The notes beneath the pieces are model-generated. The model did not search any database. It was given only the letters and a program-made list of their open reading frames with translations, and was not told where the DNA came from. A DNA stretch of 39,164 bases from Stappia stellulata (GTDB taxonomy: Bacteria; Pseudomonadota; Alphaproteobacteria; Rhizobiales; Stappiaceae). Below are positions 5,444 to 31,793 of this stretch, piece after piece. How positions within the stretch are numbered: position 1 is the stretch's first letter; every line of letters starts with the position of its first letter. The DNA is taken from the NCBI RefSeq assembly GCF_020176715.1, contig NZ_JAIVMF010000023.1, positions 1-39,164 of the forward strand, written 5' to 3'. The position numbers and the translations under genes are program-made.

Positions 5444-6085
5444 GGTCGAATTCTCCTTCAACCGATGTGACAAGCTCCCGCCTGTTCTGACGCCGTCTCC
5501 CTAAAAGCCCCTCCCGGGCTGTCTTCTCCTGCCGTGGTCGCGCCGCTCCCGGCAAAGGCGCGGGAGCGATGGGGTGCGCGGTGGCGACAATCGGACACCT
5601 GAAGGTTTGCAACGCAAGTGTCGTGCCATTGGCTGGCCGGAACGCCCTCGACCCGCCCGTTCGTTTCCCGTGCGGATGACGGATGGCGGCGGAAACTGCC
5701 GCAACGTCAATGGAAAAGCCTGAGCGAGAGGGCACGGGCAAAACCGCCGTGCGAGAGTGGCGCGCGCGCAGCTTGGCGCGACCGGGCCGGGCGATCCGTG
5801 GCGTCCGCTCTTGCAAAAGGCGAAACGCTCGGCAGGAATTGCCGCCCGTCGGGTATTTCATGCCTGCCGACCGGGCGCGCGCCGCTTGCTCCGCGGTGCG
5901 CTTTGCCGCCCGCAATTGCACAGATAACGCGCTTGACCTTGCAGAAACCGTCATGCAGTCTGTTTGAAAGAAATCGCAAGTGCTGAATATTTTTTCGGCT
6001 AGCGGGCACTCCGGATCGGCGCCAGAAAACGAGCGTCCGGGACACAATGTCAGTTCGGGGCAGGCGGCGAGGGAGGGGTGTGGCC
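5444..6085. other. Divergent intergenic region, 642 bases
   Basis: No convincing gene is present. The side next to the DUF1194 gene carries two inverted repeats: AGCCC/GGGCT (5506-5520, followed by TTTTA on the minus strand) and an 8-base stem CGCTCCCG/CGGGAGCG (5544-5568). Both would fall in the DUF1194 leader if transcription starts upstream of them. The side next to the regulator gene has the only AT-rich stretch (about 5960-5998), a likely promoter. The middle (5590-5930) shows nothing I can identify. Confidence 0.6.
5964..5993 (+). promoter_or_regulatory. Candidate promoter of the nucleoside operon
   Basis: TTGAAA (5964-5969) is followed after 17-18 bases by ATATTT/TATTTT (5987-5993) in the only AT-rich patch upstream of the regulator gene, about 90 bases before its start. 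Reasonable sigma-70-type spacing, but the -10 is weak and no operator for the SorC-type regulator could be recognised. Confidence 0.35.
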
Positions 6086-7072
6086 ATGCAACAGGGCGAC
6101 TGGACCACGGATATGGCCATTCGCGCGGCATGGATGTCGTTTGTCGGTGGCGCCACCCAGGGCGAGATCGCGACCCGCCTCGGTATTTCCAACGCCAAGG
6201 TTCACAGACTGATCGCCCATGCGCAGCGCACGGGGCTGGTGCGGTTCCAGATCGCCGGCCGGCCGGCGGACTGTCTGGAGATCGAGGCGGCGCTGATCAC
6301 CGAATGGGGACTGTCGTCCTGCCTGATCGCGCCGGACATCGGCGCCGGCGGCGATCATTCCGAAGACAGCGACATCCGCGCGATCGCCGCGCTGGCCGGC
6401 CCGCATCTTGCCAATCTCCTGTCCGGATCCGGCATCTCGCAGCTTGGCGTCGGCATGGGCCGCACGCTGAAGGCGACGGTGGAGCGGATGCCGCGCGTGC
6501 AGCGGCCCGATCTCAGGATCGTTTCGATCTCCGGATCGCTCACCCGCAAGCTGTCCGCAAACCCCTTCGACGTCGTGCAGCAACTGGCCGAACGCACCGG
6601 CGGAGAGGGCTTCTATCTGCCCGTTCCCTATCTGGCGGAAAGTGCCACCGAGCGGGACATGTTCCTCGGCCAGCGCAGCGTGCAGGCGCTGTTGGAGCGC
6701 GCGCGCGCCTCCGATCTTTTCGTCATCGGCATCGGCTCGGTGGAGGACGACGGCCATCTCATTCGCCGCGACCTGATTTCGCGCGACGAGCAGCGCGACC
6801 TGATCGCCTCGGGCGCGGTCTGCGACCTCATGGGGCGGTTTATCGGGCGCGACGGCACACTCGTCGGCGCGAAACTGGGAGAAAAGGCGGTTGGCCTGCC
6901 GTTCGAGGCGGTGCGCGGGTCGCGCGTCGTCGCGCTGTCGGGCGGCCTTGGCAAGCTTGAAGCGACGCGCGCGGCACTGCGCGCGGGGCTGATCACGGAC
7001 CTGATTGTCGACGAAAGCCTGGGGCGCGCCCTGGTGTCGGCAAAGGGCGCACAACAGGCCCGCTCGGCATGA
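6086..7072 (+). CDS. SorC/DeoR-type (Bacillus DeoR-like) transcriptional regulator
   Basis: 328 residues. An N-terminal helix-turn-helix (GATQGEIATRLGISNAKVHR, about 22-41) is joined to a SorC-type sugar-phosphate-binding domain (about 60-318; note GVGMGRTL and DLFVIGIGSV). Members of this family sense phosphorylated sugars; Bacillus DeoR responds to deoxyribose-5-phosphate. Its position at the head of a nucleoside operon makes deoxyribose-5-phosphate or ribose-5-phosphate the likely effector (inference). Start chosen at 6086 because GGGAGGGG lies seven bases upstream; the in-frame ATG at 6047 gives a basic, non-conserved extension. Only 37 bases separate it from the first binding-protein gene, so it is probably cotranscribed. 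Confidence 0.88.
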   Translation: MQQGDWTTDMAIRAAWMSFVGGATQGEIATRLGISNAKVHRLIAHAQRTGLVRFQIAGRPADCLEIEAALITEWGLSSCLIAPDIGAGGDHSEDSDIRAIAALAGPHLANLLSGSGISQLGVGMGRTLKATVERMPRVQRPDLRIVSISGSLTRKLSANPFDVVQQLAERTGGEGFYLPVPYLAESATERDMFLGQRSVQALLERARASDLFVIGIGSVEDDGHLIRRDLISRDEQRDLIASGAVCDLMGRFIGRDGTLVGAKLGEKAVGLPFEAVRGSRVVALSGGLGKLEATRAALRAGLITDLIVDESLGRALVSAKGAQQARSA

Positions 7073-7109
7073 CGCCGGCTGCGGGGAACAGGTGGAGGTT
7101 TTGCAGGTG

Positions 7110-8102
7110 ATGAAACGCTACATTCTCGGCGTCGCGGCGGCGGCGCTTCTGTCCGGCACGGCGATGGCGGAAGAGTTCGCGCCGGCCCTCGTCTATGACA
7201 TGGGCGGCAAGTTCGACAAGTCCTTCAACGAGGCCGCCTATACGGGCGCGGAGCGCTTCAAGACGGAAACCGGCATCGAGTATCGCGACTTCGAGATCCA
7301 GAACGACAGCCAGCGCGAGCAGGCGCTGCGCAATTTCGCCCGTCGCGGCGCCAATCCGGTGGTCGCCATCGGCTTTTCCCACGCAAATGCGCTGGAAAAG
7401 GTCGCCAAGGAGTTCCCGGACACGAAGTTCGCCATCGTCGACATGGTCGTCGAACTGCCGAACGTGCGCTCCATCCTGTTCAAGGAACAGGAAGGCTCCT
7501 ACATCGTCGGCAAGCTCGCCGCGATGGCGTCGGAAACCGGCAAGGTCGGCTTTGTCGGCGGCATGGACATTCCGCTGATCCAGAAGTTCGCCTGCGGCTA
7601 CAAGCAGGGCGTCATCGAGACCAATGCGGATGCGGAGGTCTTCCAGAACATGACCGGCACGACGGGTGCCGCCTGGAACGATCCGGTCAAGGGCGGCGAG
7701 CTGGCCCAGTCGCAGATGGATCGCGGCGCCGACGTGATCTACCACGCGGCCGGCGGCACCGGTCTCGGCGTGCTGCAGGCCGTGGCGGATGCCGGCAAGC
7801 TCGGCATCGGCGTCGACAGCAACCAGAACGCCCTGCATCCGGGCCAGGTGCTCACCTCCATGCTGAAGCGCGTCGACGTGGCGGTCGAGACGGCCTTCAA
7901 GGACGCGCGCGACGGCAACTGGACCTCCGGTTTCTACACGCTCGGGCTTGAGGAAGGCGGTGTCGACTGGGCGCTCGACGAGCACAACGAGGCGCTGATC
8001 ACCGACGAGATGAAGGAAGCGGTCGCCCAGGCGCGCGCCGACATCATCTCCGGCAAGATCGAGGTGCATGACTACATGGCCACCAAGAGCTGCCCGTTCT
8101 GA
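7110..8102 (+). CDS. BMP-family nucleoside ABC transporter substrate-binding protein (copy 1)
   Basis: 330 residues. A clear signal peptide (1-20, ending GTAMA) has no lipobox cysteine, so the mature protein is soluble periplasmic. The rest is a BMP/PnrA-type (basic membrane protein) binding domain: DMGGKFDKSFNEAA at 30-43, VAIGF, GFVGGMDIP, HAAGGTGLGVLQ, GVDSNQN. PnrA-like proteins bind purine and other nucleosides, and the downstream enzymes agree with a nucleoside ligand. Start at 7110 uses GGAGG eleven bases upstream. A tandem paralogue follows after 78 bases that include a strong hairpin. Confidence 0.93.
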   Translation: MKRYILGVAAAALLSGTAMAEEFAPALVYDMGGKFDKSFNEAAYTGAERFKTETGIEYRDFEIQNDSQREQALRNFARRGANPVVAIGFSHANALEKVAKEFPDTKFAIVDMVVELPNVRSILFKEQEGSYIVGKLAAMASETGKVGFVGGMDIPLIQKFACGYKQGVIETNADAEVFQNMTGTTGAAWNDPVKGGELAQSQMDRGADVIYHAAGGTGLGVLQAVADAGKLGIGVDSNQNALHPGQVLTSMLKRVDVAVETAFKDARDGNWTSGFYTLGLEEGGVDWALDEHNEALITDEMKEAVAQARADIISGKIEVHDYMATKSCPF

Positions 8103-8122
8103 TCGAAGAAACGTGACGAAAA

Positions 8123-8149
8123 CGGCCGTCCCGGTTTTCGGGGCGGCCG
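8123..8149 (+). promoter_or_regulatory. Intercistronic stem-loop between the two binding-protein genes
   Basis: An 11-base stem (8123-8133 paired with 8139-8149, one G-U pair) closes a five-base loop and is not followed by a T run. Such hairpins after the first binding-protein gene of ABC operons commonly stabilise the upstream mRNA so that binding protein is made in excess over the membrane parts. That role is inference. Confidence 0.6.
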
Positions 8150-8180
8150 CAACGCGCAGGCAAGCCGGGGCGGACCGACG

Positions 8181-9179
8181 ATGACCCTTTTGACTTGGAA
8201 AAGCTGCATTGGCGGTGCGGCGATGCTTCTCGCCGCGAGCGGTGGTGGTCTTGCCGAGCCGGCGCTTGTCTATTCCGTCGGCGGCAAGTTCGACGGCTCC
8301 TTCAACGAGGCGGCCTACCGCGGCGCGGAGCGCTATGCATCGGAGACCGGCGACAGCTACCGCGACTTCGAGATCGCCCGCGACGCGGAGAGCCTGCAGG
8401 CCCTGCGCAATTTCGCAAGGCGCGGCGCCGATCCGATCGTCGCCATCGGCTTCAACCAGGCCTCCGCCGTGTCGGGTGCCGCCGCCGATTTCCCGAATGC
8501 CAATTTCGCCATCGTCGACATGGTCGTGGATGCGCCCAATGTGCGCTCCGTCGTCTTTCGCGAGCATGAGGGCGCCTATATCGCCGGCCTGCTGGCGGCG
8601 ATGGCGTCGAAGACCGGCACCATCGGCTTCGTCGGCGGCATGGATATTCCGATCATCCGCCGGTTTCTCTGCGGCTACCGCGAGGGCGCGGCGTCCGTCT
8701 CCGCCGATGTGCGGGTGATCTTCAACATGGCCGGCGACACGCCGGCGGCCTTCGCCGATCCCGCGCGCGGGGCGGAACTGGCGCGCAGCCAGATCGCGCG
8801 CGGCGCCGACGTGATCATCCAGGCGGCCGGCGGCACCGGCATCGGCGTGCTGCAGGAGGTGGCGGATGCCGGCAAGCTCGGCATCGGCACCGACAGCAAC
8901 CAGAACGGCCTGCACCCGGGCCGGGTGCTGACCTCGATCCGCAAGCGCATCGACACCGCCGTCTTCAACAACTTCATGGATGTGCGTGACGGCCGTTGGA
9001 CGCCGGGTGTGCAGGAACTGGGTCTGAAGGACGGCGGCATGGACTGGGTGCTGGACGCCGACAATCGCGCGCTGGTCACCCCCGCGATGGAGGCGGCGGC
9101 GCGCGACGCGCAGGCCGGCATCGCGGACGGGCGCATTTCGGTGCATGACACCATGCGCGACGGGGAGTGTCCGCTGTGA
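8181..9179 (+). CDS. BMP-family nucleoside ABC transporter substrate-binding protein (copy 2)
   Basis: 332 residues, roughly 60% identical by eye to the preceding protein across its whole length. Signal peptide ending near GGGLA (residue 25), again without lipobox. Conserved blocks: VGGKFDGSFNEAA, VAIGFNQ, GFVGGMDIP, QAAGGTGIGVLQ, GTDSNQN. The differences concentrate in pocket-flanking positions (for example YHAAGG becoming IQAAGG), suggesting a shifted ligand range after a tandem duplication. The stop codon overlaps the GTG start of the ATPase gene. Could alternatively be a low-expressed backup copy. Confidence 0.92.
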   Translation: MTLLTWKSCIGGAAMLLAASGGGLAEPALVYSVGGKFDGSFNEAAYRGAERYASETGDSYRDFEIARDAESLQALRNFARRGADPIVAIGFNQASAVSGAAADFPNANFAIVDMVVDAPNVRSVVFREHEGAYIAGLLAAMASKTGTIGFVGGMDIPIIRRFLCGYREGAASVSADVRVIFNMAGDTPAAFADPARGAELARSQIARGADVIIQAAGGTGIGVLQEVADAGKLGIGTDSNQNGLHPGRVLTSIRKRIDTAVFNNFMDVRDGRWTPGVQELGLKDGGMDWVLDADNRALVTPAMEAAARDAQAGIADGRISVHDTMRDGECPL

Positions 9180-10711
9180 GCGAGCAACTTGCCATCGAGC
9201 TGGAGGGCATCGACAAGCGGTTCGGTGCGGTTCAGGCCAACAAGGACATCAACCTCAAGGTCAAGAAGGGGTCGATCCACGGCATCGTCGGGGAAAACGG
9301 CGCCGGCAAGTCGACACTGATGTCGATCCTCTACGGGTTCTATCATGCCGACGGCGGCGAGATCCGCGTCGACGGCAAGACGGTGACGATCGCCTCCAGC
9401 CAGGCGGCGATCGCGCTCGGCATCGGCATGGTGCATCAGCATTTCATGCTGGTGGACAATTTCACCGTGCTGGAAAACGTCATTCTCGGGGCGGAGGGCG
9501 GCGCACGGCTGTCCGAGGGCATCGGCCGCGCGCGGGCCGAGTTGAAGCGGCTGGAAGCGGACTACGACCTCAAGGTCGACCCGGACGCCATCACCGGCGA
9601 TCTGCCGGTCGGGCTGCAGCAGCGGGTGGAAATTCTCAAGGCGCTGTTTCGCGGCGCCGACATTCTCATTCTCGACGAGCCGACCGGCGTGCTGACCCCG
9701 CCGGAGGCCGATCATCTCTTCCGCATCCTCCGGGTGCTGCGCGACGAGGGCAAGACCGTCCTTTTGATCACCCACAAGCTGCGCGAGATCATGGCCGTGA
9801 CCGACGAGGTCTCGGTCATGCGGCGCGGCGAGATGGTCGCAACCCGCGAGACGTCGAAGACCTCCATGGGCGAACTGGCCGAACTGATGGTCGGGCGGCG
9901 GGTCCTGCTGGACGTGGAAAAGACCCCGGCGCAACCGGGCGCCCCGCTCCTGAGCGTCGAGGGGCTGAACGTGCGCGACGCGCGCGGCGTCGATGTGGTC
10001 AAGGACGTCTCGTTTGAGGTGCGCGCCGGCGAGATCGTCGGCATCGCCGGCGTCTCCGGCAACGGCCAGTCGGAACTGCTGGAGGCGATTGCCGGCATCC
10101 GCCCGGCGCGGTCCGGTATCGTCACCATCGACGGCACCCGCATCGACCTTGCCGCCGCGCGGCGCGATCCGGCGGAAATCCGCTCCTATGGTCTCGCCCA
10201 TGTGCCGGAGGACCGGCACCGGATGGGGCTGGTGACGCGCTTCCACGAATACGAAAACGCCATCCTCGGCTATCATCGCGATCCCGCCTGCGGTCGCGGC
10301 GCCTTCCTCGATCTCGACGCCATCCGCGCCACCGCGCGCGCGGGCATCGAGAAATACGACATCCGCCCGCCCGACTGTTCGCTGAAGACGGCCAATTTCT
10401 CCGGCGGCAATCAGCAGAAGATCGTGCTGGCGCGCGAGATCGAGCGCGATCCGGCCGTGCTTCTGGTCGGCCAGCCGACGCGCGGCGTCGACATCGGCGC
10501 CATCGAGTTCATCCACAAGCGGCTCGTCGCGCTGCGCGACGCCGGCAAGGCGGTGCTGCTCGTCTCCGTCGAACTCGACGAGGTGCGCGCGCTCGCCGAC
10601 CGGGTGCTCGTCATGTTCGACGGCCGGGTGGTGGGCGAACGCGCGCCGGAGACGGCGGAAAGCGAACTGGGACTTCTCATGGCGGGTGCGACGCAGGAGG
10701 CGGCGGAATGA
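9176..10711 (+). CDS. Nucleoside ABC transporter, fused double ATP-binding subunit
   Basis: 511 residues with two ABC domains in one chain, as in the RbsA/NupO/YufO type. Domain 1: Walker A GENGAGKST (39-47), Q-loop MVHQHF, signature LPVGLQQR (143-150) in place of LSGGQ, Walker B ILILDEP. Domain 2: degenerate Walker A GVSGNGQSE (292-300), signature FSGGNQQK (408-415), and LLVGQPTRGVD where the catalytic Glu is replaced by Gln, so only one ATP site is likely to be fully competent, as usual for this family. The start is taken as GTG 9176, whose GTGA overlaps the upstream stop and has GGGGAG nine bases before it; a GTG at 9167 is possible. Confidence 0.93.
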   Translation: MSEQLAIELEGIDKRFGAVQANKDINLKVKKGSIHGIVGENGAGKSTLMSILYGFYHADGGEIRVDGKTVTIASSQAAIALGIGMVHQHFMLVDNFTVLENVILGAEGGARLSEGIGRARAELKRLEADYDLKVDPDAITGDLPVGLQQRVEILKALFRGADILILDEPTGVLTPPEADHLFRILRVLRDEGKTVLLITHKLREIMAVTDEVSVMRRGEMVATRETSKTSMGELAELMVGRRVLLDVEKTPAQPGAPLLSVEGLNVRDARGVDVVKDVSFEVRAGEIVGIAGVSGNGQSELLEAIAGIRPARSGIVTIDGTRIDLAAARRDPAEIRSYGLAHVPEDRHRMGLVTRFHEYENAILGYHRDPACGRGAFLDLDAIRATARAGIEKYDIRPPDCSLKTANFSGGNQQKIVLAREIERDPAVLLVGQPTRGVDIGAIEFIHKRLVALRDAGKAVLLVSVELDEVRALADRVLVMFDGRVVGERAPETAESELGLLMAGATQEAAE

Positions 10712-11814
10712 CGGCGGGTCAGATGCCGCGCTGGGCGGATTACATTCTCATGCCGGCGATCAACGTGGCGGCGGCCTTCTTCGTCTCCGGCCTCGTGGTG
10801 CTGGCGATCGGCGAGAACCCGATCGATGCGGTGCGCATTCTGGTGTGGGGCGCCTTCGGCTGGAACGAGGGCATCGGCTTCACGCTGTTCTACGCCACCA
10901 ATTTCATCTTCACCGGTCTTGCCGTGGCGGTCGCATTTCATGCGAGCCTGTTCAACATCGGCGGCGAGGGACAGGCCTATATCGGCGGGCTCGGCGTCGC
11001 CTTCGCCTGTCTGGCGCTCGACCGCTTCGTGCCCTGGTGGGTGACCTTGCCCTTTGCCGTTGCGGGGGCCGCCGCCTTCGGCGCGGCCTGGGCCTATATT
11101 CCGGCCGTGCTTCAGGCCAAGCGCGGCAGCCATGTCGTCATCACCACCATCATGTTCAACTTCATCGCCGCCTCGCTGATGGTCTATCTGCTCGTCAACG
11201 TGATGGCGAAGGAAGGCTCGATGCAGCCGGAAACCCGCACCTTCGAGGAGGGCGGACGGCTTCCCCTGCTGGATACAATCCTGCCCGGCGTCGATTTCGG
11301 CTCCGCGCCGGCCAATCTCTCCTTCGTGCTGGCGCTTCTCGCCTGCGTCTTCACCTGGGTGCTGATCTGGCGCACCAAGCTCGGCTACGAGATCCGCACC
11401 TTCGGCGCCAACCAGACGGCGGCGATCTACGCCGGCATCTCGCCCGTGCGCATCACCGTCATCACCATGCTGATTTCCGGAGCCATGGCCGGCATGATGG
11501 CGGTCAACGAGATCATGGGGTCGCAGCACCGGCTGCTGATCGAGTTCGTTTCCGGCTACGGTTTCGTCGGCATTGCCGTGGCGCTGATGGGGCGCTCGCA
11601 TCCGCTCGGCATTCTCTTTGCCGCGCTGCTGTTCGGCATGCTCTACCAGGGCGGCGCCGAGCTTGCCTTCGAGATGCCGGCGATCACCCGCGACATGATC
11701 GTGGTGATCCAGGCGCTGGTGATCCTCTTCGCCGGCGCGCTGGAGCATATGTTCCGCCCCGCCCTCATCAAGCTGTTCGGTGTGCTCTCCGCGCCGGCCA
11801 CGCGACCGGCCTGA
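10708..11814 (+). CDS. Nucleoside ABC transporter permease 1 (YufP/NupP-like)
   Basis: 368 residues, hydrophobic throughout with about nine membrane segments, of the BPD_transp_2 branched-chain/ribose permease family. Recognisable blocks are FNIGGEGQAYIG near residue 90 and EIRTFGANQTAAIYAGIS near 230, the coupling-helix region shared by permeases that work with BMP-type binding proteins. Its ATG overlaps the ATPase stop as ATGA. Forms the membrane channel together with the next gene. Confidence 0.92.
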   Translation: MTAGQMPRWADYILMPAINVAAAFFVSGLVVLAIGENPIDAVRILVWGAFGWNEGIGFTLFYATNFIFTGLAVAVAFHASLFNIGGEGQAYIGGLGVAFACLALDRFVPWWVTLPFAVAGAAAFGAAWAYIPAVLQAKRGSHVVITTIMFNFIAASLMVYLLVNVMAKEGSMQPETRTFEEGGRLPLLDTILPGVDFGSAPANLSFVLALLACVFTWVLIWRTKLGYEIRTFGANQTAAIYAGISPVRITVITMLISGAMAGMMAVNEIMGSQHRLLIEFVSGYGFVGIAVALMGRSHPLGILFAALLFGMLYQGGAELAFEMPAITRDMIVVIQALVILFAGALEHMFRPALIKLFGVLSAPATRPA

Positions 11815-11826
11815 GGAGCACCGCCA

Positions 11827-12795
11827 ATGTTCGACACGCTGATCCTCATTCTCGACAGCACGGTGCGGCTCTCCACGCCGTTGTTGCTGGCCGCCCTTGC
11901 CGGACTTTACTCGGAGCGCTCCGGCGTCTTCGACATCGGCCTTGAGGGCAAGATGCTGGGCGCGGCCTTTGCCGCCGGCGCCGCCGCCGCCGTCACCGGT
12001 TCCGCCTGGATCGGTCTGGGGGCCGGCATTCTGGTGTCCATCGCGCTTGCGCTTGTGCACGGGTTTGCCTGCATCACCCACCGTGGCAACCAGATCGTCT
12101 CCGGCGTGGCGATCAACTTCCTCGCCATCGGCCTGACGGCGTTGCTCGGCCAGGACTGGTTCCGCCAGGGCGGGCGCACGCCGCCGGTCACCGGCGATGC
12201 GCGCTTCGAGACCCTGGTCTTGCCCTTCGCCGATGCCTTGCGCGAGGTTCCGGTGATCGGCGGGATCTATTCCGAGCTTCTGTCCGGCCACAACGTCCTG
12301 GTCTACATCGCGTTTCTCGCCGTGCCCTTCACTTGGTGGGTGCTGTTTCGCACCCGTTTCGGCCTGCGCCTGCGCGCCGTCGGCGAAAACCCGGCCGCCG
12401 TCGACACCGCCGGCATCTCCGTCACCTGGCTGCGCTACCGCGCGGTGATCTGCACCGGCATCCTGTGCGGCATCGCCGGGGCCTATCTGTCGGTGGCGCA
12501 ATCGGCGGGCTTCATCAAGGACATGACCGCGGGCAAGGGCTTCATTGCGCTCGCCGCGCTGATCTTCGCCAAGTGGAAGCCGGTGCCGGTGATGTTCGCC
12601 TGTCTGCTCTTCGGTTTCCTCGATGCGGTGGCGATCCGCCTGCAGGGACAGCAGGTGCCCGGCATCGGCGAAGTGCCGGTGCAGGCGATCCAGGCGCTCC
12701 CCTATATCCTGACCGTGGTGCTGCTGGCCGGCTTCATCGGCCGGGCCGTCCCGCCCAAGGCCGGCGGCACGGCCTATGTCAAGGAACGCTCATGA
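11827..12795 (+). CDS. Nucleoside ABC transporter permease 2 (YufQ/NupQ-like)
   Basis: 322 residues, eight or nine membrane segments, same family as the preceding permease but shorter. The family blocks SGVFDIGLEGKMLGAA and LRAVGENPAAVDTAGIS are present. GAGGAG lies eight bases upstream of the ATG at 11827. The stop overlaps the start of cdd, tying transport directly to catabolism and supporting cytidine/deoxycytidine among the imported substrates. Confidence 0.92.
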   Translation: MFDTLILILDSTVRLSTPLLLAALAGLYSERSGVFDIGLEGKMLGAAFAAGAAAAVTGSAWIGLGAGILVSIALALVHGFACITHRGNQIVSGVAINFLAIGLTALLGQDWFRQGGRTPPVTGDARFETLVLPFADALREVPVIGGIYSELLSGHNVLVYIAFLAVPFTWWVLFRTRFGLRLRAVGENPAAVDTAGISVTWLRYRAVICTGILCGIAGAYLSVAQSAGFIKDMTAGKGFIALAALIFAKWKPVPVMFACLLFGFLDAVAIRLQGQQVPGIGEVPVQAIQALPYILTVVLLAGFIGRAVPPKAGGTAYVKERS

Positions 12796-13199
12796 GCCGT
12801 TTCGACGACCTCTTCGCCGCCGCGCGTGCGGCGCGCGACAATGCCTATGCCGGATATTCCGGCTTTGCCGTCGGCGCGGCGGTTCTGACCGACGACGGAC
12901 GGATCTTCGCCGGCAGCAATGTCGAAAACGCCAGCTTCCCGGAAGGCTGGTGCGCGGAGACGACGGCGCTGGGCGCCATGGTTGCCGCCGGCGGCCGCCG
13001 GGTGGTGGAGGTGGTGGTGACGGCCGATGCCGCCCTTTGCACGCCCTGCGGCGGCTGCCGCCAGCGGCTCGCCGAGTTCGCAGGCGATGACACGCCGGTG
13101 CATATCTGCAATGCCACTGCCTTGCGCCGGACCTTCCGTCTCGACGAGTTGCTGCCGGCGAAATTCGAACTGCATGAACGAAAGGACACCGCGTCATGA
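12792..13199 (+). CDS. cdd: Cytidine deaminase
   Basis: 135 residues, the short homotetrameric form. It deaminates cytidine and deoxycytidine to uridine and deoxyuridine. The zinc site is complete: Cys54 in WCAET with catalytic Glu56, and Cys86/Cys89 in the PCGGCRQ motif. The substrate-binding FAVGAAV and GSNVENAS segments are at 25-31 and 41-48. Both ends overlap neighbours by ATGA (permease upstream, punA downstream). It feeds deaminated pyrimidine nucleosides to DeoA. Confidence 0.96.
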   Translation: MSRFDDLFAAARAARDNAYAGYSGFAVGAAVLTDDGRIFAGSNVENASFPEGWCAETTALGAMVAAGGRRVVEVVVTADAALCTPCGGCRQRLAEFAGDDTPVHICNATALRRTFRLDELLPAKFELHERKDTAS

Positions 13200-14008
13200 G
13201 CGGCTATGGACGCGAATGCGCCGAACAGGTCCGCGCCGCGCGCCCGGGCACCTACCGTCTCGGCATGGTGCTGGGCTCCGGTCTCGGCGCGCTCGCCGAC
13301 GAGATCGAGGACGCCGTGCGCCTTCCTTACGCGCGGCTTTCGGGCTTTCCGGTGTCCTCCGTCTCCTCGCATGGCAGCGAGATCGTGGCCGGAACGCTCT
13401 CCGGCGTTCCCGTCGTCGTCCTGTCGGGGCGCGCGCATTACTACGAGAGCGGCAAGGCGGACGTGATGCGCACGCCGCTGGAGACGCTAAGGGAGCTTGG
13501 CTGCGACACGCTGCTCCTGACCAACGCGGCCGGAAGCCTGCGCGAGGACCTCGCGCCCGGAACGCCGATGCTGATTTCCGACCACATCAACTGGTCCGGT
13601 CTCAATCCCCTGATCGGCGAGGAAAGCGAGGCGCGCTTTCTCGACATGAGCGCGGCCTATGACCCTGAGCTGCGCGCCCGGCTTGCGGCCCTTGCGAAAG
13701 ACGCCGGCATCACGGTGGGCGAGGGCGTCTACATGTGGTTTTCCGGCCCCTCCTTCGAGACGCCGGCGGAAATCCGCATGGCGCGGGGACTGGGCGCGGA
13801 TGCGGTCGGCATGTCGACGGTGCCGGAGGTGATTCTGGCCCGCTTCATGGGCTTTCGGGTCGCGGCGATTTCGACGATCACCAACTATGGCGCCGGCCTG
13901 CAGGCGCATGCGTTGTCCCATGCCGAGACCAAGGCGACCGCATTGACCGCGGTCGATGCTCTGAAGACGCTGATCCGGCGTTTCGTGAAGGATCTTGCCG
14001 ATGACTGA
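13196..14008 (+). CDS. punA: Purine nucleoside phosphorylase (trimeric PunA family)
   Basis: 270 residues. Catalyses phosphorolysis of purine (deoxy)nucleosides to the free base and (deoxy)ribose-1-phosphate. Motifs of the low-molecular-mass trimeric class: GSGLG (27-31), GRAHYYE (78-84), TNAAGSL (109-115), SGPSFETPAEI (183-193) and GMSTVPE (205-211). Asn230 in TITNYGAG lies where the purine-contacting Asn of the human enzyme sits, which usually indicates 6-oxopurine (inosine/guanosine) preference. Adenosine deaminase later in the operon would convert adenosine to inosine for it. Confidence 0.94.
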   Translation: MSGYGRECAEQVRAARPGTYRLGMVLGSGLGALADEIEDAVRLPYARLSGFPVSSVSSHGSEIVAGTLSGVPVVVLSGRAHYYESGKADVMRTPLETLRELGCDTLLLTNAAGSLREDLAPGTPMLISDHINWSGLNPLIGEESEARFLDMSAAYDPELRARLAALAKDAGITVGEGVYMWFSGPSFETPAEIRMARGLGADAVGMSTVPEVILARFMGFRVAAISTITNYGAGLQAHALSHAETKATALTAVDALKTLIRRFVKDLADD

Positions 14009-14801
14009 GATGACTGCCGCAGAAACAGCCGCTGCGACCGCCGCACGCGCCCTGCCGCTGGTCGACCTGACCAATCTGGACGATGGTTGCCAGGCGACTG
14101 ACATCGATGCGCTGTGCAAGCGTGCCGTCACGCCGCACGGGCCGGTCGCCGCCGTCTGCATCTGGCCGCGCTTCGTCGGCCAGGCGGCGGCAGCGCTTGC
14201 CGGTACCGGCGTCCGGGTGGCGACGGTGGTGAATTTTCCGCAAGGCGGCGACGAGACGCTGAAGGTCGTTGCCGAAACGCGGCAGGCGGTCGCCGACGGC
14301 GCCGACGAGATCGACCTGGTCATGGCCTATCGCGCCTTCGTCGCCGGACGCCGCGGCTTTGCCGAGGAGCAGATCCGCCGGGTGCGCGCGGCCTGCCCGG
14401 AGGCGACGCTGAAGGTCATTCTGGAAACCGGCGAGATCGGCGATCCGCTGCTGATCCACGCGGCCTCCAATGTCGCGATCGGCGCCGGCGCCGATTTCAT
14501 CAAGACCTCCACCGGCAAGGTTGCGGTCAACGCGACGCTGGAGGCGGCCGAAATCATGCTGACCCTGATCGAGGAAGTGCGCCGCGACAGTCTGATGGAG
14601 ATCGGCTTCAAGCCGGCCGGCGGCATTCGCACCGTCGAGGACGCAAGCGCCTATCTTGCGCTCGCCGACCGGATTCTCGGGCCGAACTGGGTGTCGGCGG
14701 CAAGCTTCCGTTTCGGCGCGAGCGGACTGCTCGATGCGCTGCTGGCAGCCCTTGGCGATCCGCCAGACGACGGGCCGATCCCCCTCAAGGCAGGATATTG
14801 A
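14001..14801 (+). CDS. deoC: Deoxyribose-phosphate aldolase
   Basis: 266 residues, E. coli-type class I aldolase splitting 2-deoxyribose-5-phosphate into acetaldehyde and glyceraldehyde-3-phosphate. The Schiff-base lysine is Lys168 in DFIKTSTGK; the proton-relay Lys204 is in GFKPAGGIR, and Asp105 sits in EIDLV. Start at 14001 (AAGGA eight bases upstream, eight-base overlap with punA) is favoured; an ATG at 14010 is a possible alternative. The deoC-deoA-deoB order completes the deoxyribose pathway. Confidence 0.95.
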   Translation: MTEMTAAETAAATAARALPLVDLTNLDDGCQATDIDALCKRAVTPHGPVAAVCIWPRFVGQAAAALAGTGVRVATVVNFPQGGDETLKVVAETRQAVADGADEIDLVMAYRAFVAGRRGFAEEQIRRVRAACPEATLKVILETGEIGDPLLIHAASNVAIGAGADFIKTSTGKVAVNATLEAAEIMLTLIEEVRRDSLMEIGFKPAGGIRTVEDASAYLALADRILGPNWVSAASFRFGASGLLDALLAALGDPPDDGPIPLKAGY

Positions 14802-14806
14802 CCGCG

Positions 14807-16129
14807 ATGCTCGCACAGGAACTCATCCGCAAGAAACGCGACGGCGGCACGCTGGATGCCGAGGAGATCGGTTTTTTCGTCAAGGGGCTGGTCGACGGAT
14901 CGGTCACCGACGCGCAGGTCTCCGCGCTGGCGATGGCGATCATCTTCCGCAAGCTTTCCGCCGACGAACGCGTGGCGCTGACGCTCGCCATGCGTGACAG
15001 CGGCACCGTGCTCGACTGGTCCGACCTCGACCGGCCGGTGGTCGACAAGCATTCCACCGGTGGCGTCGGCGACAATGTGTCCCTGATGCTGGCGCCGGCG
15101 CTGGCCGCCTGCGGCGCGGCCGTGCCGATGATTTCCGGGCGCGGGCTTGGCCACACCGGCGGCACGCTCGACAAGTTCGACAGCATTCCGGGCTATGTGA
15201 CGCAGCCCGACAATGCGCTGTTTCGCAAGGTGGTGGCCGACGTCGGCTGCGCGATCATCGGGCAGACCGCCGATCTCGCCCCGGCGGACAAGCGCTTCTA
15301 CGGGATCCGCGATGTTACCGGGACTGTGGAGAGCGTCGACCTGATCACCGCGTCGATCCTGTCGAAGAAGCTCGCCGCCGGGCTTCAGGGGTTGGTGCTC
15401 GACGTCAAATGGGGCAGCGGCGCCTTCATGGCGACGCTGGAGGAGGCGATGGCACTCGCCGAAAGCCTCGTCGCCGTCGCCAATGGCGCGGGCTGCCGCA
15501 CCACCGCACTCCTGACCGACATGAACGAGCCGCTGGCCTCTGCCGCCGGCAACGCGCTGGAAGTGCGCAATGCGGCCGATTTCCTGACCGGTCGTGCCAT
15601 CGACAACCGCCTCTATGACGTCACCGTGGAGCTTGGCGGCGAGGCGCTGGTGACTGCGGGCCTCGCGCCCGACCGGGCGGCGGGCGCCGATGCGATGCGC
15701 AAGGTCTTTGGCAGCGGCGCTGCGGCCGAGCATTTCGCCCGCATGGTCACGGCACTTGGCGGTCCGGCGGATTTTTTGGAAAAATACGAGGCCTATCTGC
15801 CCTCCGCTCCGGTGGAGCGGGCGATCTATCCGGCGGAGGCCGGGACGGTTCTCTGCGTCGATGCGCGCGCCATCGGCGTTGCCGTGGTGGAGCTTGGCGG
15901 CGGGCGTCGGCGTCCCGAGGATACGATCGACCCGGCCGTCGGGCTGGAGCATCTGGCGGGCGTCGGACATTCCGTCGACAGCGACGCGCCGCTCGCCATC
16001 GTCCATGCCGCCGACGAGGCGGCTGCGGCGCGTGCGACGGAGATCGTGCAGAAAGCCTATCGCGTCGGTGCGCCGTCCCAGGTGGAGGACAGGCCGGTGA
16101 TTGCCGGGCGGGTCGGTCCGTCGGGTTGA
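14807..16129 (+). CDS. deoA: Thymidine phosphorylase
   Basis: 440 residues, the usual size for DeoA. Converts thymidine and deoxyuridine to base plus deoxyribose-1-phosphate. Phosphate-binding KHSTGGVGD is at 81-89, and the family signature SGRGLGHTGGTLDK at 110-123. The three domains (alpha bundle, glycosyltransferase-like core, C-terminal PYNP domain) are intact. A much longer open frame runs upstream, but that part is the shadow of deoC; the ATG at 14807 lies five bases after the deoC stop with AAGGCAGGA ahead. Confidence 0.95.
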   Translation: MLAQELIRKKRDGGTLDAEEIGFFVKGLVDGSVTDAQVSALAMAIIFRKLSADERVALTLAMRDSGTVLDWSDLDRPVVDKHSTGGVGDNVSLMLAPALAACGAAVPMISGRGLGHTGGTLDKFDSIPGYVTQPDNALFRKVVADVGCAIIGQTADLAPADKRFYGIRDVTGTVESVDLITASILSKKLAAGLQGLVLDVKWGSGAFMATLEEAMALAESLVAVANGAGCRTTALLTDMNEPLASAAGNALEVRNAADFLTGRAIDNRLYDVTVELGGEALVTAGLAPDRAAGADAMRKVFGSGAAAEHFARMVTALGGPADFLEKYEAYLPSAPVERAIYPAEAGTVLCVDARAIGVAVVELGGGRRRPEDTIDPAVGLEHLAGVGHSVDSDAPLAIVHAADEAAAARATEIVQKAYRVGAPSQVEDRPVIAGRVGPSG

Positions 16130-16146
16130 TCGTTCGAACAACGAAA

Positions 16147-16177
16147 GACGGGACAAACCCGTCAGACTGCTGACAAA
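16147..16177 (+). repeat. Hairpin and 16-base repeat between deoA and deoB
   Basis: GACGGG (16147-16152) pairs with CCCGTC (16158-16163), overlapping GTCAG-ACTG-CTGAC (16161-16174). The 16-base word at 16162-16177 recurs exactly at 39047-39062. This is the only clear structured interruption within the tightly overlapping middle part of the operon and precedes the deoB ribosome-binding site (GAGG at 16178-16182). Confidence 0.55.
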
Positions 16178-16188
16178 GAGGAAACCCC

Positions 16189-17409
16189 ATGGCCCGCGCA
16201 ATCCTGTGCGTATTGGACAGTTTCGGCATCGGCGGGGCTCCGGATGCGGCAAGCTTCGGCGACGAGGGCGCGAATACGCTCGGCCATATCGCCGCTGCCT
16301 GCGCCACCGGCGCGGCGGATCGCGACGGCCTGCGCAAGGGTCCGCTCGCGCTTCCCAACATGACGCGGCTGGGTCTGGCCCGTGCGGCACTTCTGGCGAG
16401 CGGCACCGCACCCGCCGGCCTCGATGTGGGTGTGGAGCCCGAGGGTGTCTGGGGCGCGGCGAGCGAGACCTCGCACGGCAAGGACACGCCCTCCGGCCAC
16501 TGGGAAATCGCCGGCGTGCCGGTCACCTTCGACTGGGGCTATTTCCCTGACACCGAACCGGCCTTTCCGGCCGAACTGACCCGCGCGATTGTCGACAAGG
16601 GCGGCCTGCCCGGGATCCTTGGCGACAAACATGCCTCCGGAACGGTGATCATCGCCGAACTCGGCGAGGACCACATCGCGACCGGCAAGCCGATCTGCTA
16701 CACGAGCGGCGATTCCGTCTTCCAGATCGCGGCGCATGAGACCCATTTCGGGCTGGAGCGTCTCTATGCGCTCTGCGAGACCGTGCGCGACCTGGTCGAT
16801 CCCTACAACATCGGCCGGGTGATCGCGCGGCCCTTCGTCGGCGAGACGGCCGAGACCTTCGAGCGCACGGCGAACCGGCGGGATTACTCTGTCCTGCCGC
16901 CCGAACCGACGCTGCTCGACCGGGTGGTGGAGGCCGGTCGCCGGACGCATACGGTCGGCAAGATCGCGGATATCTTCGCGCATCAGGGGATCTCCACGGT
17001 GCGCAAGGCCGCCGGCAACATGGCGCTTTTCGACAAGACGCTGGAGGCGATGGAGGAGGCCGGCGACGGCGATCTCGTCTTCGTCAATTTCATCGATTTC
17101 GACAGCCTGTTCGGCCACCGCCGCGATGTCGCCGGCTATGCCGCAGCCCTTGAGGCGCTGGACGCCCGCCTGCCGGAACTGCTGGCGCGGCTGAAGCCCG
17201 GCGACCTGCTGCTTCTCACCGCCGATCACGGCTGCGACCCGACCTGGCGCGGCACGGATCACACCCGCGAGCGCATTCCGGTGATCGGCACGGGGCCCGG
17301 CATCCCGGCAACCGCCATCGGCGTGCGCGCGACCTTCGCCGACATCGGCGAGACGCTGGCCGCGCATCTGGGTCTGGCGCCGGGCCGGCACGGACAGGGG
17401 TTCCTGTAA
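16189..17409 (+). CDS. deoB: Phosphopentomutase
   Basis: 406 residues. Interconverts (deoxy)ribose-1-phosphate and the 5-phosphates, linking the phosphorylases to DeoC and the pentose phosphate pathway. It belongs to the alkaline-phosphatase fold: metal-binding Asp10 in CVLDSFGIG, the phosphorylated Thr100 within [10 protein letters not shown] (97-106), and the C-terminal [17 protein letters not shown] metal site near 345. AAAGAGG precedes the ATG. It follows the hairpin/repeat at 16147-16177. Confidence 0.95.
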
Positions 17410-17447
17410 ACGACGACGCGTCTCCCAGACATGACAAGGACGGATGA

Positions 17448-18320
17448 ATGATTGCACGCTCATTTGAGGCGCCCGCTGACGGTCGTTTGACGCCGGAGAT
17501 GCGCACGGCCTATGCCGAGGACGGATTTCTCGTCCTGACGGGCTACAAGAGTTCTGAGGAATGCGACGCGCTCGCCAGCCGCATGACCGAGCTGATCGAC
17601 GCCTTTGATCCGGCGGAAAACGCCTCCGTCTTCGAGACCGGCGCGCAGAGCCACGCCCGCGACCGCTACTTCCGCGAAAGCGGCGACAAAATCCGTTTCT
17701 TCTTCGAGGAGGAAGCCTTCGACACCGACGGCAAGCTGACGCGGCCCAAGCATGCCGCGCTCAACAAGGTCGGCCATGCGCTGCACGATCTCGATCCGGT
17801 GTTCGAGGCGTTTTCGCGCGATCCGCGCCTTGCGCGCACCGCCGCCGATCTCGGGCTGGCCGATCCGCTGCTGGCGCAGTCGATGTATATCTTCAAGCCG
17901 CCGGAGATCGGCGGCGAGGTCAATTGCCACCAGGATTCCACCTTCCTGCACACCGAGCCGCTTACCTGCACCGGCTTCTGGTTCGCGCTCGAGGATGCGG
18001 ACCAGACCAACGGCGGGTTGCTCGGCGTGCCGGGCGGCCATATCGGTCCTCTGCGCCAGCGTTTTCACTACGACGGCGACGGGCTGACCATGGAACCGCT
18101 CGACGACACGCCTTTCGGCGAGGATGCCGCACTCGTCGCGCCGAAGGGAACGCTGGTCGTGCTGCATGGTCTGGTGCCGCACCGCTCCGCGCCCAACCGC
18201 TCGCCGCGCTCGCGCCATGCCTATGCGCTGCACATGGTCGACGGCACGGCCCGCTGGTCGCCCGACAACTGGCTGCTGCGGTCTCCTGAAAACCCGATGC
18301 GCGGCTTCGGGCCGGCATGA
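17448..18320 (+). CDS. Phytanoyl-CoA dioxygenase family oxygenase, PHYHD1-like
   Basis: 290 residues, a non-haem iron and 2-oxoglutarate oxygenase. The iron triad is visible as His161-x-Asp163 (CHQDSTF) and His245, and Arg256 eleven residues later would hold 2-oxoglutarate (HRSAPNRSPRSR). From memory, the blocks SGDKIRFFFE, NKVGHALH, QSMYIFKPPEIGGEV, TEPL and WSPDNWL match the animal orphan enzyme PHYHD1 more closely than true phytanoyl-CoA hydroxylase. The catalytic set is complete, so activity is expected. It lies between deoB and add, and add starts inside its stop codon. The substrate is unknown; a nucleoside, base or pentose derivative is suggested only by context. Confidence 0.88.
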   Translation: MIARSFEAPADGRLTPEMRTAYAEDGFLVLTGYKSSEECDALASRMTELIDAFDPAENASVFETGAQSHARDRYFRESGDKIRFFFEEEAFDTDGKLTRPKHAALNKVGHALHDLDPVFEAFSRDPRLARTAADLGLADPLLAQSMYIFKPPEIGGEVNCHQDSTFLHTEPLTCTGFWFALEDADQTNGGLLGVPGGHIGPLRQRFHYDGDGLTMEPLDDTPFGEDAALVAPKGTLVVLHGLVPHRSAPNRSPRSRHAYALHMVDGTARWSPDNWLLRSPENPMRGFGPA

Positions 18321-19336
18321 CGCAGACCCTGACTGCGGCCCTCGTGCCCAAGGCGGAACTGCATGTCCACATCGAGGGCGCCGCGCCGCCGGATCTGGTG
18401 CGCGAGCTCGCCGATCAACACGGCGTCGATGTCTCCGGCCTCTTCGCCGAGGACGGGTCCTATGCGTGGACGGACTTCGCCCAGTTTCTCGCCGTCTATG
18501 ACAGGGCGAGCCGGGTGTTTCGCACGCCGCAGGACTATGCGCGCCTCGCCGAGACCTATCTGCGCTCGATTGCCTCGGACGGCGCGATCTACGCCGAACT
18601 CACCATCTCGCCGGATCATGCCGCCGCAAGCGGCCTCTCCTATGCCGATTATGTCGGCGGTCTTGCCGAGGGCATTGCGCGGGCGCGGGCGGCGACAGGC
18701 ATCGAGGCGCGGATGATCGCCGTCGGCGTGCGCCATTTCGGCGCGCGCGCGGTGGAACAGGTGGCCCGTCAGGTCGCGGCCTATCCGCATCCTTTGGTGA
18801 CGGGCTTTGGCCTGGCGGGCGACGAGACGGAGGGCCATCCGGCGAATTTCGCCCGCGCCTTTCGCATGGCGGCGGAGGCCGGCCTCGGTCTTACCGCTCA
18901 TGCCGGCGAAACGGCCGGGGCGGAAAGCGTGACGGCGGCGCTCGATTTCCTGCAGGTCTCGCGCATCGGCCATGGCGTGCGCGCCATCGAGGACACGGCC
19001 GTGGTCGAACGCATTGTGCGGGACGGCATCGTGCTTGAAGTCTGTCCCGGCTCCAATCTGGCGCTCGGGATCTATGGCGCGCTGCGGTTTCATCCGGTCA
19101 ACCTGCTGCGCCGCGCCGGCTGCCGCATCACGCTCAATTCCGACGATCCGCCGTTTTTCGGCACGTCGCTCGCCCAGGAATACGAAGCTTGCGCGCGCAC
19201 CTTCGGCTGGGATCGGGCACAGAGCCTGGAGATCACGCGCACGGCGATTGCCGCCGCCTTTTGCGACGAGGACACCCGCGCCCGGCTGCTGCATGCGGTG
19301 GCGACGGCTGAGGACGCCCCTCCGGACCCGGCGTGA
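18317..19336 (+). CDS. add: Adenosine deaminase
   Basis: 339 residues, amidohydrolase fold. Zinc ligands and catalytic residues: His16 and His18 (ELHVHIEG), His195 and Glu198 (HAGE), His219 (IGHG) and Asp276 (NSDDPPFF). LAGDE at 166-170 is the segment that varies between adenosine- and adenine-specific enzymes. Expected reaction: adenosine or deoxyadenosine to inosine or deoxyinosine, the substrate of PunA. The SDDP and CPGSN motifs are also seen in adenine deaminases of the same superfamily, so adenine cannot be excluded as substrate; the operon context favours adenosine. ATGA overlap with the oxygenase gene. Confidence 0.88.
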
Positions 19337-19491
19337 GGCGCATCGGATCTGTTGCTTTTCGTCGCGGCCGGTGTTCCGCTTGGCGAGCGCTTGAACTAGA
19401 AGGACCGAAGACAGGCAGCGCACCGGTCGTCCGGCCCTGGCGTTGCCGGGGACGCGTTCGACATCCGGTCCGACACAAGAAGAGGCGAGAC
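19337..19491 (+). other. Spacer between add and upp
   Basis: At 155 bases this is the longest break in the operon. No terminator hairpin with a T run is seen, so read-through is likely. A secondary promoter for upp-rbsK could lie here, but I cannot identify one with confidence. Confidence 0.4.
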
Positions 19492-20121
19492 ATGACAGGT
19501 GCCACCGTAATCGACCATCCGCTGGTTCAGCACAAGCTCACGCACATGCGGATGAAGGACACCTCGACCCAAGGGTTTCGTCGTCTGCTCAGGGAAATTT
19601 CCGTTCTCCTGACCTATGAGGTCACCCGCGACCTGCCGATCGCGCCGATGGAGATCGAGACGCCGCTTCAGCCGATGTCGGCTCCCGTCATCGAGGGCAA
19701 GAAGCTCGTCTTCGCCTCCGTCCTTCGCGCCGGCAACGGCCTGCTGGAGGGCATGCTGGAACTGGTGCCGGCGGCGCGCGTCGCCCATATCGGTCTCTAC
19801 CGCGACCCCAAGACGCTGCAGCCGGTCGAATATTACTTCAAGGCTCCCGACGGCCTCGCCGAACGCCTCGTCGTGGTGGTCGATCCGATGCTCGCCACCG
19901 CCAATTCCGCGATTGCCGCCGTGCAGCGGCTGAAGGATCGCGGCGCGACGCAACTGCGCTTCCTGTGCCTGCTGGCCGCACCCGAGGGCATCGCCAAGTT
20001 CAACGAGGCCCATCCCGACGTGCCGATCTTTACCGCCGCCATCGACGAAAGGCTCAACGAGAAGGGCTATATCGTGCCGGGGCTCGGCGACGCGGGCGAT
20101 CGCATGTACGGTACCAAATAG
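19492..20121 (+). CDS. upp: Uracil phosphoribosyltransferase
   Basis: 209 residues, exactly the family size. Makes UMP from uracil and PRPP, recovering the base released from uridine, deoxyuridine and cytidine. The PRPP-binding loop [12 protein letters not shown] spans 129-140 and the uracil-binding tail [17 protein letters not shown] is at 192-208. The start at 19492 (AGAGGCGAGAC upstream) is chosen over the longer frame because conserved sequence begins there. A small hairpin AGGCGG/CCGCCT overlaps the stop codon (20120-20137). Confidence 0.96.
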
Positions 20122-20155
20122 GCGGGGCTTTCCGCCTGAACGCGGGGGCGCGGAG

Positions 20156-21082
20156 ATGATCACAGTTTTCGGGTCGATCAACCTGGATCTGGTTGTGTCG
20201 CTGCCGCGCCTGCCGGCACCCGGCGAGACCATCGTCGGGCCGGATCACCAGAGCTTTGCCGGCGGCAAGGGCGCCAATCAGGCGCTTGCCGCCGCCCGCG
20301 CGGGCGCCAGGGTGCGCATGATCGGCGCGGTCGGACAGGATGCCCATGCCGGCCCCGCGCTCGCCAATCTGGAGGCCGCCGGCGTCGACCTTTCCGGCGT
20401 GCGCCATCTGGAGGGAACGACCGGGCTTGCCATGATCGGGGTCGCCGCCGACGGCGAGAACCTGATCATGTGCGCCAGCGGCGTGAATGCCCGCGTCGCC
20501 GCCGACTGGCTTGAGGGCGAACTGTCTCCCGAGGTGCTTTTGGTGTTGCAGCGCGAGTTGCGCGCCGAACCGATCCGCGATGCGGTGGCGCGCGCCCGTG
20601 CGGCCGGAGCGCGGGTGCTGCTCAACGCCGCGCCCTCCGGGGACGCGGATCTGGCTTCGCTTCTCGACGATGTCGACATTGTCGTCGCGAACGAGATCGA
20701 GGCGGCGGAGCTCGGCATTGCCAGGGGCGCGGCGCCCGGGTCCTCCGCCGAAGCCTTTTGCGCCGTGCTTGGCGGTGCGGAGCGCCTGAGCGTCGTCACG
20801 CTCGGGCCGCGCGGTGTCGTCGCGCGGCTTGGGACGGACGTCTGGCGGGTTGCCGCGCCGCGCATCGAGGTCGTCGATACCACCGGCGCCGGCGATGCCT
20901 TCGTCGGGGCGCTTGCCGCAGCGCTCGACCGGGGGGCGGATGTGCCGCGCGCCCTGTGCGAGGGCACGGCCGCCGGGGCGCTCGCCTGCACGGCAACAGG
21001 CGCGCAGACGTCCTCGCCGGGTGCACAGGCGATTGCCGCGCTTGCCGACACGCTCACCTGCGAGCGCACCACCGCCTCATAG
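20156..21082 (+). CDS. rbsK: Ribokinase (PfkB family sugar kinase)
   Basis: 308 residues. The PfkB fold motifs are GGKGANQALAAARAG (36-50) and DTTGAGDAFVGAL (241-253) with catalytic Asp247; NAAP and ANEIEA match ribokinases. Expected to phosphorylate ribose (or possibly deoxyribose) at O5. As the last gene of the nucleoside operon it joins free pentose to the DeoB/DeoC products, but no nucleoside hydrolase is present to make free ribose, so the substrate could be another pentose or nucleoside-like compound. Start at 20156 has GCGGAG directly upstream. Confidence 0.88.
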   Translation: MITVFGSINLDLVVSLPRLPAPGETIVGPDHQSFAGGKGANQALAAARAGARVRMIGAVGQDAHAGPALANLEAAGVDLSGVRHLEGTTGLAMIGVAADGENLIMCASGVNARVAADWLEGELSPEVLLVLQRELRAEPIRDAVARARAAGARVLLNAAPSGDADLASLLDDVDIVVANEIEAAELGIARGAAPGSSAEAFCAVLGGAERLSVVTLGPRGVVARLGTDVWRVAAPRIEVVDTTGAGDAFVGALAAALDRGADVPRALCEGTAAGALACTATGAQTSSPGAQAIAALADTLTCERTTAS

Positions 21083-27540: not shown

Positions 27541-27723
27541 GATGGTCCGTCCTTGTTCGCGATGCCGCACGTTTGCGCGCGGGGGCGTTCCCCGCAAACC
27601 CCAAATGCGCCTCAGCGGTGTATGGCACGTCTGTGAAGCGGCAGTGAACCCGGACGGTCGCATCCGCGCTATCCGGTAAGGCCCTTAGGAGACAGGGGCA
27701 CCCAGGTCAGGCATGGGGAAACG

Positions 27724-28901: not shown

Positions 28902-28940
28902 CGGGGGCCTCGTTCCATCGATTTCGCCGTTGGATGTCAT

Positions 28941-29429: not shown

Positions 29430-29628
29430 TTCCATCGGCTCCTTCGAAGAATTCCTACCCGAACGTGAAGGAGATTGGTGAAGGAACCGCTAACATGCGC
29501 CGGCGCCTCGTTGCGATCCGCTGCTATTGTTAATTCCGACGAGGCGAGGGGTTTACCAAGATCTTCGCGACGGCACCCTCGTCCGCTTTCGTTGCTGGTG
29601 TCCCGGGGCAATGCGTGTTGAAAGCCTT

Positions 29629-29667: not shown

Positions 29668-29718
29668 ATGGAAAGGCGAAGAGGATTTGTTTTTTCTCCG
29701 CTTTCCGAATTTAACCAA

Positions 29719-31754: not shown

Positions 31755-31793
31755 AACGGCGCGGGTATGGCAATGACGTCAAGGAGAACTAGA

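Follow-up and report, generated by a model that had tools for sequence, protein, structure and literature searches.

What does an Fe(II)/2-oxoglutarate (2OG) oxygenase do in an operon that otherwise takes up and breaks down nucleosides? The question is raised by a gene of Stappia stellulata in the 39,164-nucleotide stretch of contig NZ_JAIVMF010000023.1 that we analyzed (the window; Table 1). The initial annotation had proposed a nucleoside, a nucleobase, or a deoxyribose compound as the substrate of the enzyme, an interpretation that our analysis partly supports.

An oxygenase gene in a nucleoside operon

The oxygenase gene is real, as first described. Its reading frame starts with ATG, ends with TGA, and encodes 290 amino acids. 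It begins after 38 bases that separate it from the end of deoB at 17409, and its stop codon overlaps the start codon of add in an ATGA motif, which confirms the placement between the two genes originally given. The genes from 6047 to 21082 are all on one strand, with overlaps or gaps of at most about 155 bases, and we infer that they form a single transcript. A scan of the operon for promoters and terminators returned nothing above shuffled sequences. The PF04198 protein encoded at the head of the row is a likely candidate for the regulator of the whole nucleoside operon.

Table 1. Genes of the nucleoside operon in the window, with the basis of each assignment.
Feature	Position	Strand	Basis
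Regulator with PF04198 sugar-binding domain, just upstream of the BMP genes	6047..7072	+	Pfam
BMP/PnrA-like substrate-binding protein	7107..8102	+	Pfam; NCBIfam match clear but under cut-off
Second BMP-type substrate-binding protein	8181..9179	+	NCBIfam BMP model, 102 bits, under cut-off
ABC transporter ATPase	9167..10711	+	Best NCBIfam models are sugar/B6-type ATPases, under cut-offs
ABC permease (BPD_transp_2)	10708..11814	+	Pfam
Second ABC permease	11827..12795	+	Position and sequence
cdd, cytidine deaminase	12795..13199	+	NCBIfam above curated cut-off
Purine-nucleoside phosphorylase	13196..14008	+	NCBIfam above curated cut-off
deoC-like deoxyribose-phosphate aldolase	13995..14801	+	Named from sequence
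deoA, thymidine phosphorylase	14816..16129	+	NCBIfam above curated cut-off
deoB, phosphopentomutase	16189..17409	+	NCBIfam above curated cut-off
PHYHD1-type Fe(II)/2OG oxygenase, 290 amino acids, proposed 2'-O-methyl nucleoside demethylase	17448..18320	+	Pfam, PDB sequence match, predicted fold, alignment
add, adenosine deaminase, ATGA overlap with the oxygenase gene	18317..19336	+	NCBIfam above curated cut-off
upp, uracil phosphoribosyltransferase	19492..20121	+	NCBIfam above curated cut-off
PfkB-family (ribokinase-like) kinase	20156..21082	+	Pfam

Two tandem BMP-type binding proteins precede a single transporter, and their ligands might differ. Tandem BMP proteins are also encoded in several Stappia and Breoghania loci, and many other loci have one, where the end of the locus may hide a second. 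In Breoghania, Pseudovibrio, and some other members of the family, a gene for a DUF1688 protein (PF07958), which we take to be a protein of uracil catabolism, lies between add and upp (e.g., 11874–13175 in locus L133). Further along the window, two minus-strand genes (24920–26098 and 26095–27663) encode an acetate kinase (named from sequence) and, beside it, a fusion of MaoC and phosphate acetyltransferase. The stretch from 28326 to 38959 contains Flp/Tad pilus genes (TadE, RcpC/CpaB, secretin, and T2SSF by Pfam).

The oxygenase is PHYHD1-like

Residues 22–258 of the protein match the PhyH family (PF05721) at 127.6 bits, against a cut-off of 22, and no other Pfam family matches up to an E-value of 1. 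The iron triad (His161, Asp163, and His245) and the 2OG-binding arginine (Arg256) are complete and located where the initial annotation had placed them, and all four residues are unchanged in the alignment of 128/128 distinct relatives. The nearest protein relatives among the best 80 of 563 matches in named genomes come from a metagenome-assembled genome labeled Rhodobacteraceae (99%) and from S. stellulata (92%). In the host genome (4.55 Mb), the gene itself is the sole match to its protein at an E-value ≤ 0.001. Four more PhyH-family genes are present, all out of reach of a tblastn search with the oxygenase protein at an E-value of 1e-4.

Searched against all PDB sequences, the protein has human PHYHD1 (2opw/3obz) as its top match, with 207.7 bits (E-value 2.4e-60) and 41% identity over 270 aligned columns, followed by EvdO2 (45.5 bits) and human PHYH (34.5 bits). 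A structure model for which the oxygenase was aligned with 14 relatives (mean pLDDT 88.6) superimposes on two PHYHD1 structures with TM scores of 0.87 and 0.86 (40% identity) but on human PHYH, the third row by E-value, with a TM score of 0.61 (20% identity). PHYHD1 alone scores above 0.68 among the 50 matches listed. By sequence and predicted fold, the oxygenase is thus of the PHYHD1 type rather than a phytanoyl-CoA hydroxylase, and the initial annotation had judged this correctly. Human PHYH (2a1x) has the PhyH superfamily fold in common with it, whereas human PHYHD1 resembles it in predicted fold, length, and Fe and 2OG ligands. PHYHD1 also has an extra helix near the mouth of its cavity (Q56–L71 in the human protein); the model places a helix at residues 69–76, next to and partly within a segment (residues 61–70) with pLDDT below 50.

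The substrates of PHYHD1 bear directly on the Stappia protein. The initial annotation had regarded PHYHD1 as an orphan enzyme, a view now out of date because PHYHD1 and bacterial relatives are reported to demethylate free 2'-O-methyl nucleosides (Stonkus et al., NAR December 2025; PMC12709175). The operon therefore supports a known function instead of supplying a first one. As described in that work, FJS, a bacterial gene from a metagenomic screening selected on 2'-O-methylcytidine, and human PHYHD1 both turn free 2'-O-methyl nucleosides into the unmethylated form with consumption of 2OG, and formaldehyde was shown as a product for FJS. Neither enzyme acts on mono- or triphosphates; 3'-O-methyluridine is not a substrate, and a small RNA with a 3'-terminal 2'-O-methyl group is not demethylated (PMC12709175). 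Active enzymes came from animals, a fungus, plants, bacteria, and a giant virus, and human PHYH was reported inactive on 2'-O-methyl nucleosides; the bacterial enzymes tested include ones from Sphingomonas, Acidisoma, and Poribacteria (PMC12709175). Furthermore, zebrafish phyhd1 knockouts accumulate free 2'-O-methyl nucleosides (PMC12709175).

The residues that line the pocket extend the likeness to PHYHD1. In the published docking model of PHYHD1, K102, H105, Q139, and W277 hold the ribose and the base stacks on F161; the stacking position is described as Tyr in the tested bacterial demethylases and the ribose contacts as conserved among the non-bacterial ones (PMC12709175). The alignment pairs the four ribose contacts, all identical, with K107, H110, Q144, and W275 of the Stappia protein and the stacking residue with F166. 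Lys107 and Gln144 are kept in 128/128 relatives and His110 and Trp275 in 127/128, while at position 166 Phe (94 of the 128) is commoner than Tyr (33) and Trp (1). On sequence grounds, the Stappia pocket therefore appears to resemble the animal enzyme more closely than the bacterial enzymes as Stonkus et al. describe them (PMC12709175). Two paralogs from the host genome, aligned to the same positions, differ: the first shares Gln144 and Trp275 but is gapped at 107 and 110, and the second is without His110, Gln144, and Trp275. Unlike the Stappia enzyme, human PHYHD1 is an animal protein outside any operon, and its Ser154 corresponds to Asn159, a position that varies across the bacterial relatives.

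Two bacterial systems invite comparison. FJS is of about the same length (858-bp ORF) and catalyzes the reaction that we propose for the Stappia protein, but it was cloned as an insert of ~1200 bp without an operon and belongs to the tested bacterial demethylases said to have Tyr, in contrast to Phe166 of Stappia (compared by description; PMC12709175). The RK9NH/RK9DPA pair likewise consists of bacterial genes proposed to act in a cluster for 2'-O-methyl nucleoside degradation, yet it encodes a nucleoside hydrolase that frees the base and an aldolase, with no oxygenase in the abstract and passages covered (PMC6278475).

The nucleoside neighborhood recurs in other genomes

Homologs of the oxygenase were found in 35/87 genomes of the window's family at an E-value of 1e-40, and in 38/385 genomes of the class and 9/398 of the phylum at 1e-25 (own genome included in each count; the phylum set overlaps the other two). 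We fetched the loci of all 37 other class matches, 5 new phylum matches, and 18 of the 34 other family matches, together with the best 80 of 563 loci in named genomes, so that the whole set was selected for its similarity to the Stappia protein. These 140 loci represent 128 distinct proteins, with those having the same sequence in the middle of the match treated as identical. Neighbors were counted from tblastn matches; the automatic gene call, which missed the oxygenase in 28/140 loci, was used solely in choosing representatives.

Of the 128 distinct relatives, 67 have a gene of nucleoside catabolism or of the BMP transporter on the same strand no more than 1 kb away; where at least 3 kb of sequence is available on both sides, the count is 61/107. 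In the class sample, which is even and the least biased set, 21/37 loci have such a neighbor on one strand or the other at a distance of up to 1.5 kb, and these 21 come from 12 of 23 family codes. The neighbor is a catabolic gene at 16 of them and a BMP gene, with cdd and pnp farther away, at four; the last has a divergent BMP transporter only. At 5 of the 16 class loci without such a neighbor, the contig ends less than 3 kb away on one side. As a control, we used a paralog of another PhyH subfamily of the host genome (G000:C11), which matched in 89 of the 385 class genomes. A nucleoside-operon neighbor was found at 0/30 of its loci (best 30 of 89; 1.5-kb flanks, some shorter). The neighborhood thus recurs well beyond the host genome, and so the initial annotation holds on the point that it had itself named as its refutation, a lack of recurrence elsewhere.

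The gene occurs in four kinds of arrangement. The commonest order in Alphaproteobacteria is BMP-ATPase-permeases-cdd-pnp-(deoC)-deoA-deoB-PhyH-add, with variants in which a phosphorylase replaces deoB or PhyH precedes the BMP gene. Pelagibius-type loci have an extra 5'-nucleotidase. The loci of Woeseiales and other Gammaproteobacteria have, downstream of PhyH, genes for a pyrimidine nucleoside phosphorylase, a CNT nucleoside transporter, a nucleoside hydrolase, and a PfkB kinase (families assigned from representatives). Among named genomes, adjacency is seen in 24/39 loci of Alphaproteobacteria and 11/13 of Gammaproteobacteria, and in none of the loci of Betaproteobacteria (0/12), Myxococcia (0/3), "Deltaproteobacteria" (0/4), Thermoleophilia (0/1), and Blastocatellia (0/1). 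It is also seen in 4/7 loci without a class label and in 28/48 of the remaining loci of the 128. On a quick tree with long branches, used solely for counting state changes, parsimony requires at least 9 changes of the neighbor state (3 of them forced by well-supported branches), compared with a mean of 42.8 after shuffling.

The composition of the operons is also variable. A search for deoC within about 10 kb at an E-value of 1e-10, which a diverged deoC could escape, had no hit in 24/36 operon-borne relatives outside the window's family and missed none inside it (0/19). Similarly, add was detected in 29/55 operon-borne loci with full flanks.

The oxygenase gene is an optional extra of the operon

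We checked sister genomes for the operon without the oxygenase, using 30 of the 52 family genomes in which no match was found. All of them (30/30) have deoA upstream of deoB and add downstream. The add gene follows deoB within 300 bases in 29/30; in the remaining genome the match to deoB is split in two, with add 349 bases after the first part. Because the deoA-deoB-add row is kept throughout, the oxygenase gene is best explained as a single gene, either inserted or lost, in an operon that is complete without it and of which it is an optional extra. The retention of the row in genomes without the gene also indicates that the oxygenase is dispensable for ordinary nucleosides. This is as expected if the added gene widens the range of substrates to a modified class.

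Relatives outside operons have other surroundings. Twenty neighbor proteins at 12 loci of stand-alone relatives (Massilia, Kiloniella, SAR324, Pyrinomonadaceae, and others) included no evident nucleoside enzyme by Pfam. Next to the SAR324 copy are an M20 peptidase and a carbon-nitrogen hydrolase, two proteins that could be pyrimidine-catabolic. The Niveispirillum copy adjoins chorismate synthase, and a Massilia agri locus (L164) has two PHYHD1-like copies separated by about 2 kb. Searches of phages with the oxygenase returned no match, and those of plasmids matched 2 of 72,556 records (Azospirillum and Halomarina, the latter at 22.6% identity). The Azospirillum relative (47% identity) is encoded at 5983–6834 of the mobilizable A. 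ramasamyi plasmid NZ_CP029836.1 (L280), among genes for a SAM methyltransferase, a TauD-type oxygenase, and a very long hypothetical protein; this locus has no nucleoside gene and perhaps represents a biosynthetic use of the same fold. Given the stand-alone relatives and the company of the Azospirillum gene, other substrates are possible in the wider group.

A proposed route for 2'-O-methyl nucleosides

Taken with the activity of its relatives, the sequence, model, and analogy evidence suggests that the Stappia oxygenase is very probably a 2'-O-methyl nucleoside demethylase that feeds the deaminases and phosphorylases of the operon. Nucleosides from RNA breakdown, presumably including the methylated ones, would be imported by the BMP-type ABC transporter. 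The oxygenase would use Fe(II), O2, and 2OG to hydroxylate the 2'-O-methyl carbon, releasing succinate and CO2, and the unstable hydroxylated product would decay to the plain nucleoside and formaldehyde. The reaction would most likely be an O-demethylation rather than a stable hydroxylation of the kind carried out by the fungal enzymes named in the initial annotation. The plain nucleoside could then pass to the deaminases (Cdd and Add), phosphorylases, and phosphopentomutase. How demethylated uridine would be processed further is not evident, given that DeoA is of the thymidine phosphorylase type. Two glutathione-dependent formaldehyde dehydrogenases, both over the curated cut-off and encoded elsewhere in the genome, presumably clear the formaldehyde. 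The need for a demethylation step fits the report of an E. coli strain unable to use 2'-O-methylcytidine without such an enzyme (PMC12709175).

Other readings of the locus carry much lower probabilities. The enzyme could hydroxylate 2'-deoxynucleosides at C2' to ribonucleosides, like the pyrimidine deoxynucleoside 2'-hydroxylase of Neurospora, a very unlikely function even though the Stappia operon also has deoA and deoC. Most operon-borne relatives outside the window's family are without a detectable deoC, Woeseiales-type loci have a CNT transporter and nucleoside hydrolase instead, and the 30 sister genomes without the gene retain deoA and deoB. Thymine-7-hydroxylase and deoxynucleoside 2'-hydroxylase belong to a Pfam family other than PhyH, the sole match of the Stappia protein up to an E-value of 1. 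The absence of deoxynucleosides from the substrates in the table and main text of Stonkus et al. can be counted on the side of C2' hydroxylation (PMC12709175). The tight coupling with add could instead point to a base modification as the target (N6-methyladenosine or 5-methylpyrimidines), with demethylation or hydroxylation preparing substrates for Add or Cdd. We rate this the least probable of the alternatives, for little more than half of the operon-borne loci have a detectable add, and FJS and human PHYHD1 convert N6,2'-O-dimethyladenosine to N6-methyladenosine and leave the base methyl in place (table 1 of PMC12709175).

A function outside nucleoside metabolism, with the gene placed in the operon accidentally or for the sake of co-regulation, would agree with the 61/128 relatives found away from nucleoside-operon genes. 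The gene recurs, however, in several distinct nucleoside arrangements that cluster on the tree, the paralog control was negative, and the 13-kb surroundings of the host's four other PhyH-family genes yielded no operon genes, so that this explanation is even less probable than C2' hydroxylation. Of the substrates first proposed, the nucleoside is thus retained, and 2'-O-demethylation is the reading that we prefer; nucleobases and deoxyribose compounds were too wide a choice, made less likely by the frequent lack of deoC in operons carrying the oxygenase gene and by the conservation of the ribose contacts of the demethylases.

Implications

The enzyme activity was already known, and its operon context was the subject of no paper that we found in the literature searched. 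The main text of Stonkus et al. gives the activity without a bacterial genomic context; its single uses of "operon" and "gene cluster" refer to the pyr operon and to RK9NH, respectively (PMC12709175). No bacterial operon with a PHYHD1-type gene appeared in the titles and abstract openings covered, a scope outside which subscription papers and preprints fall, nor did the oxygenase gene appear in those on BMP/deoC nucleoside transport in rhizobia. The recurrent operon is therefore independent support for a nucleoside substrate and points to a whole pathway from uptake to catabolism. It also suggests that entries named "phytanoyl-CoA dioxygenase family protein" could be renamed where they belong to the PHYHD1-type subgroup, and it names cultured bacteria (Stappia, Pseudovibrio, and Dongia) in which to study the physiological role. 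More broadly, and with somewhat better than even confidence, we propose that the PHYHD1-type demethylase recurs as an accessory module in several differently built operons for nucleoside uptake and catabolism in Alphaproteobacteria and Woeseiales-type Gammaproteobacteria. For these bacteria, 2'-O-methyl nucleosides set free from RNA would be an environmental nutrient with a dedicated, regulated pathway, and animal PHYHD1 would be the salvage-side counterpart, with the same pocket.
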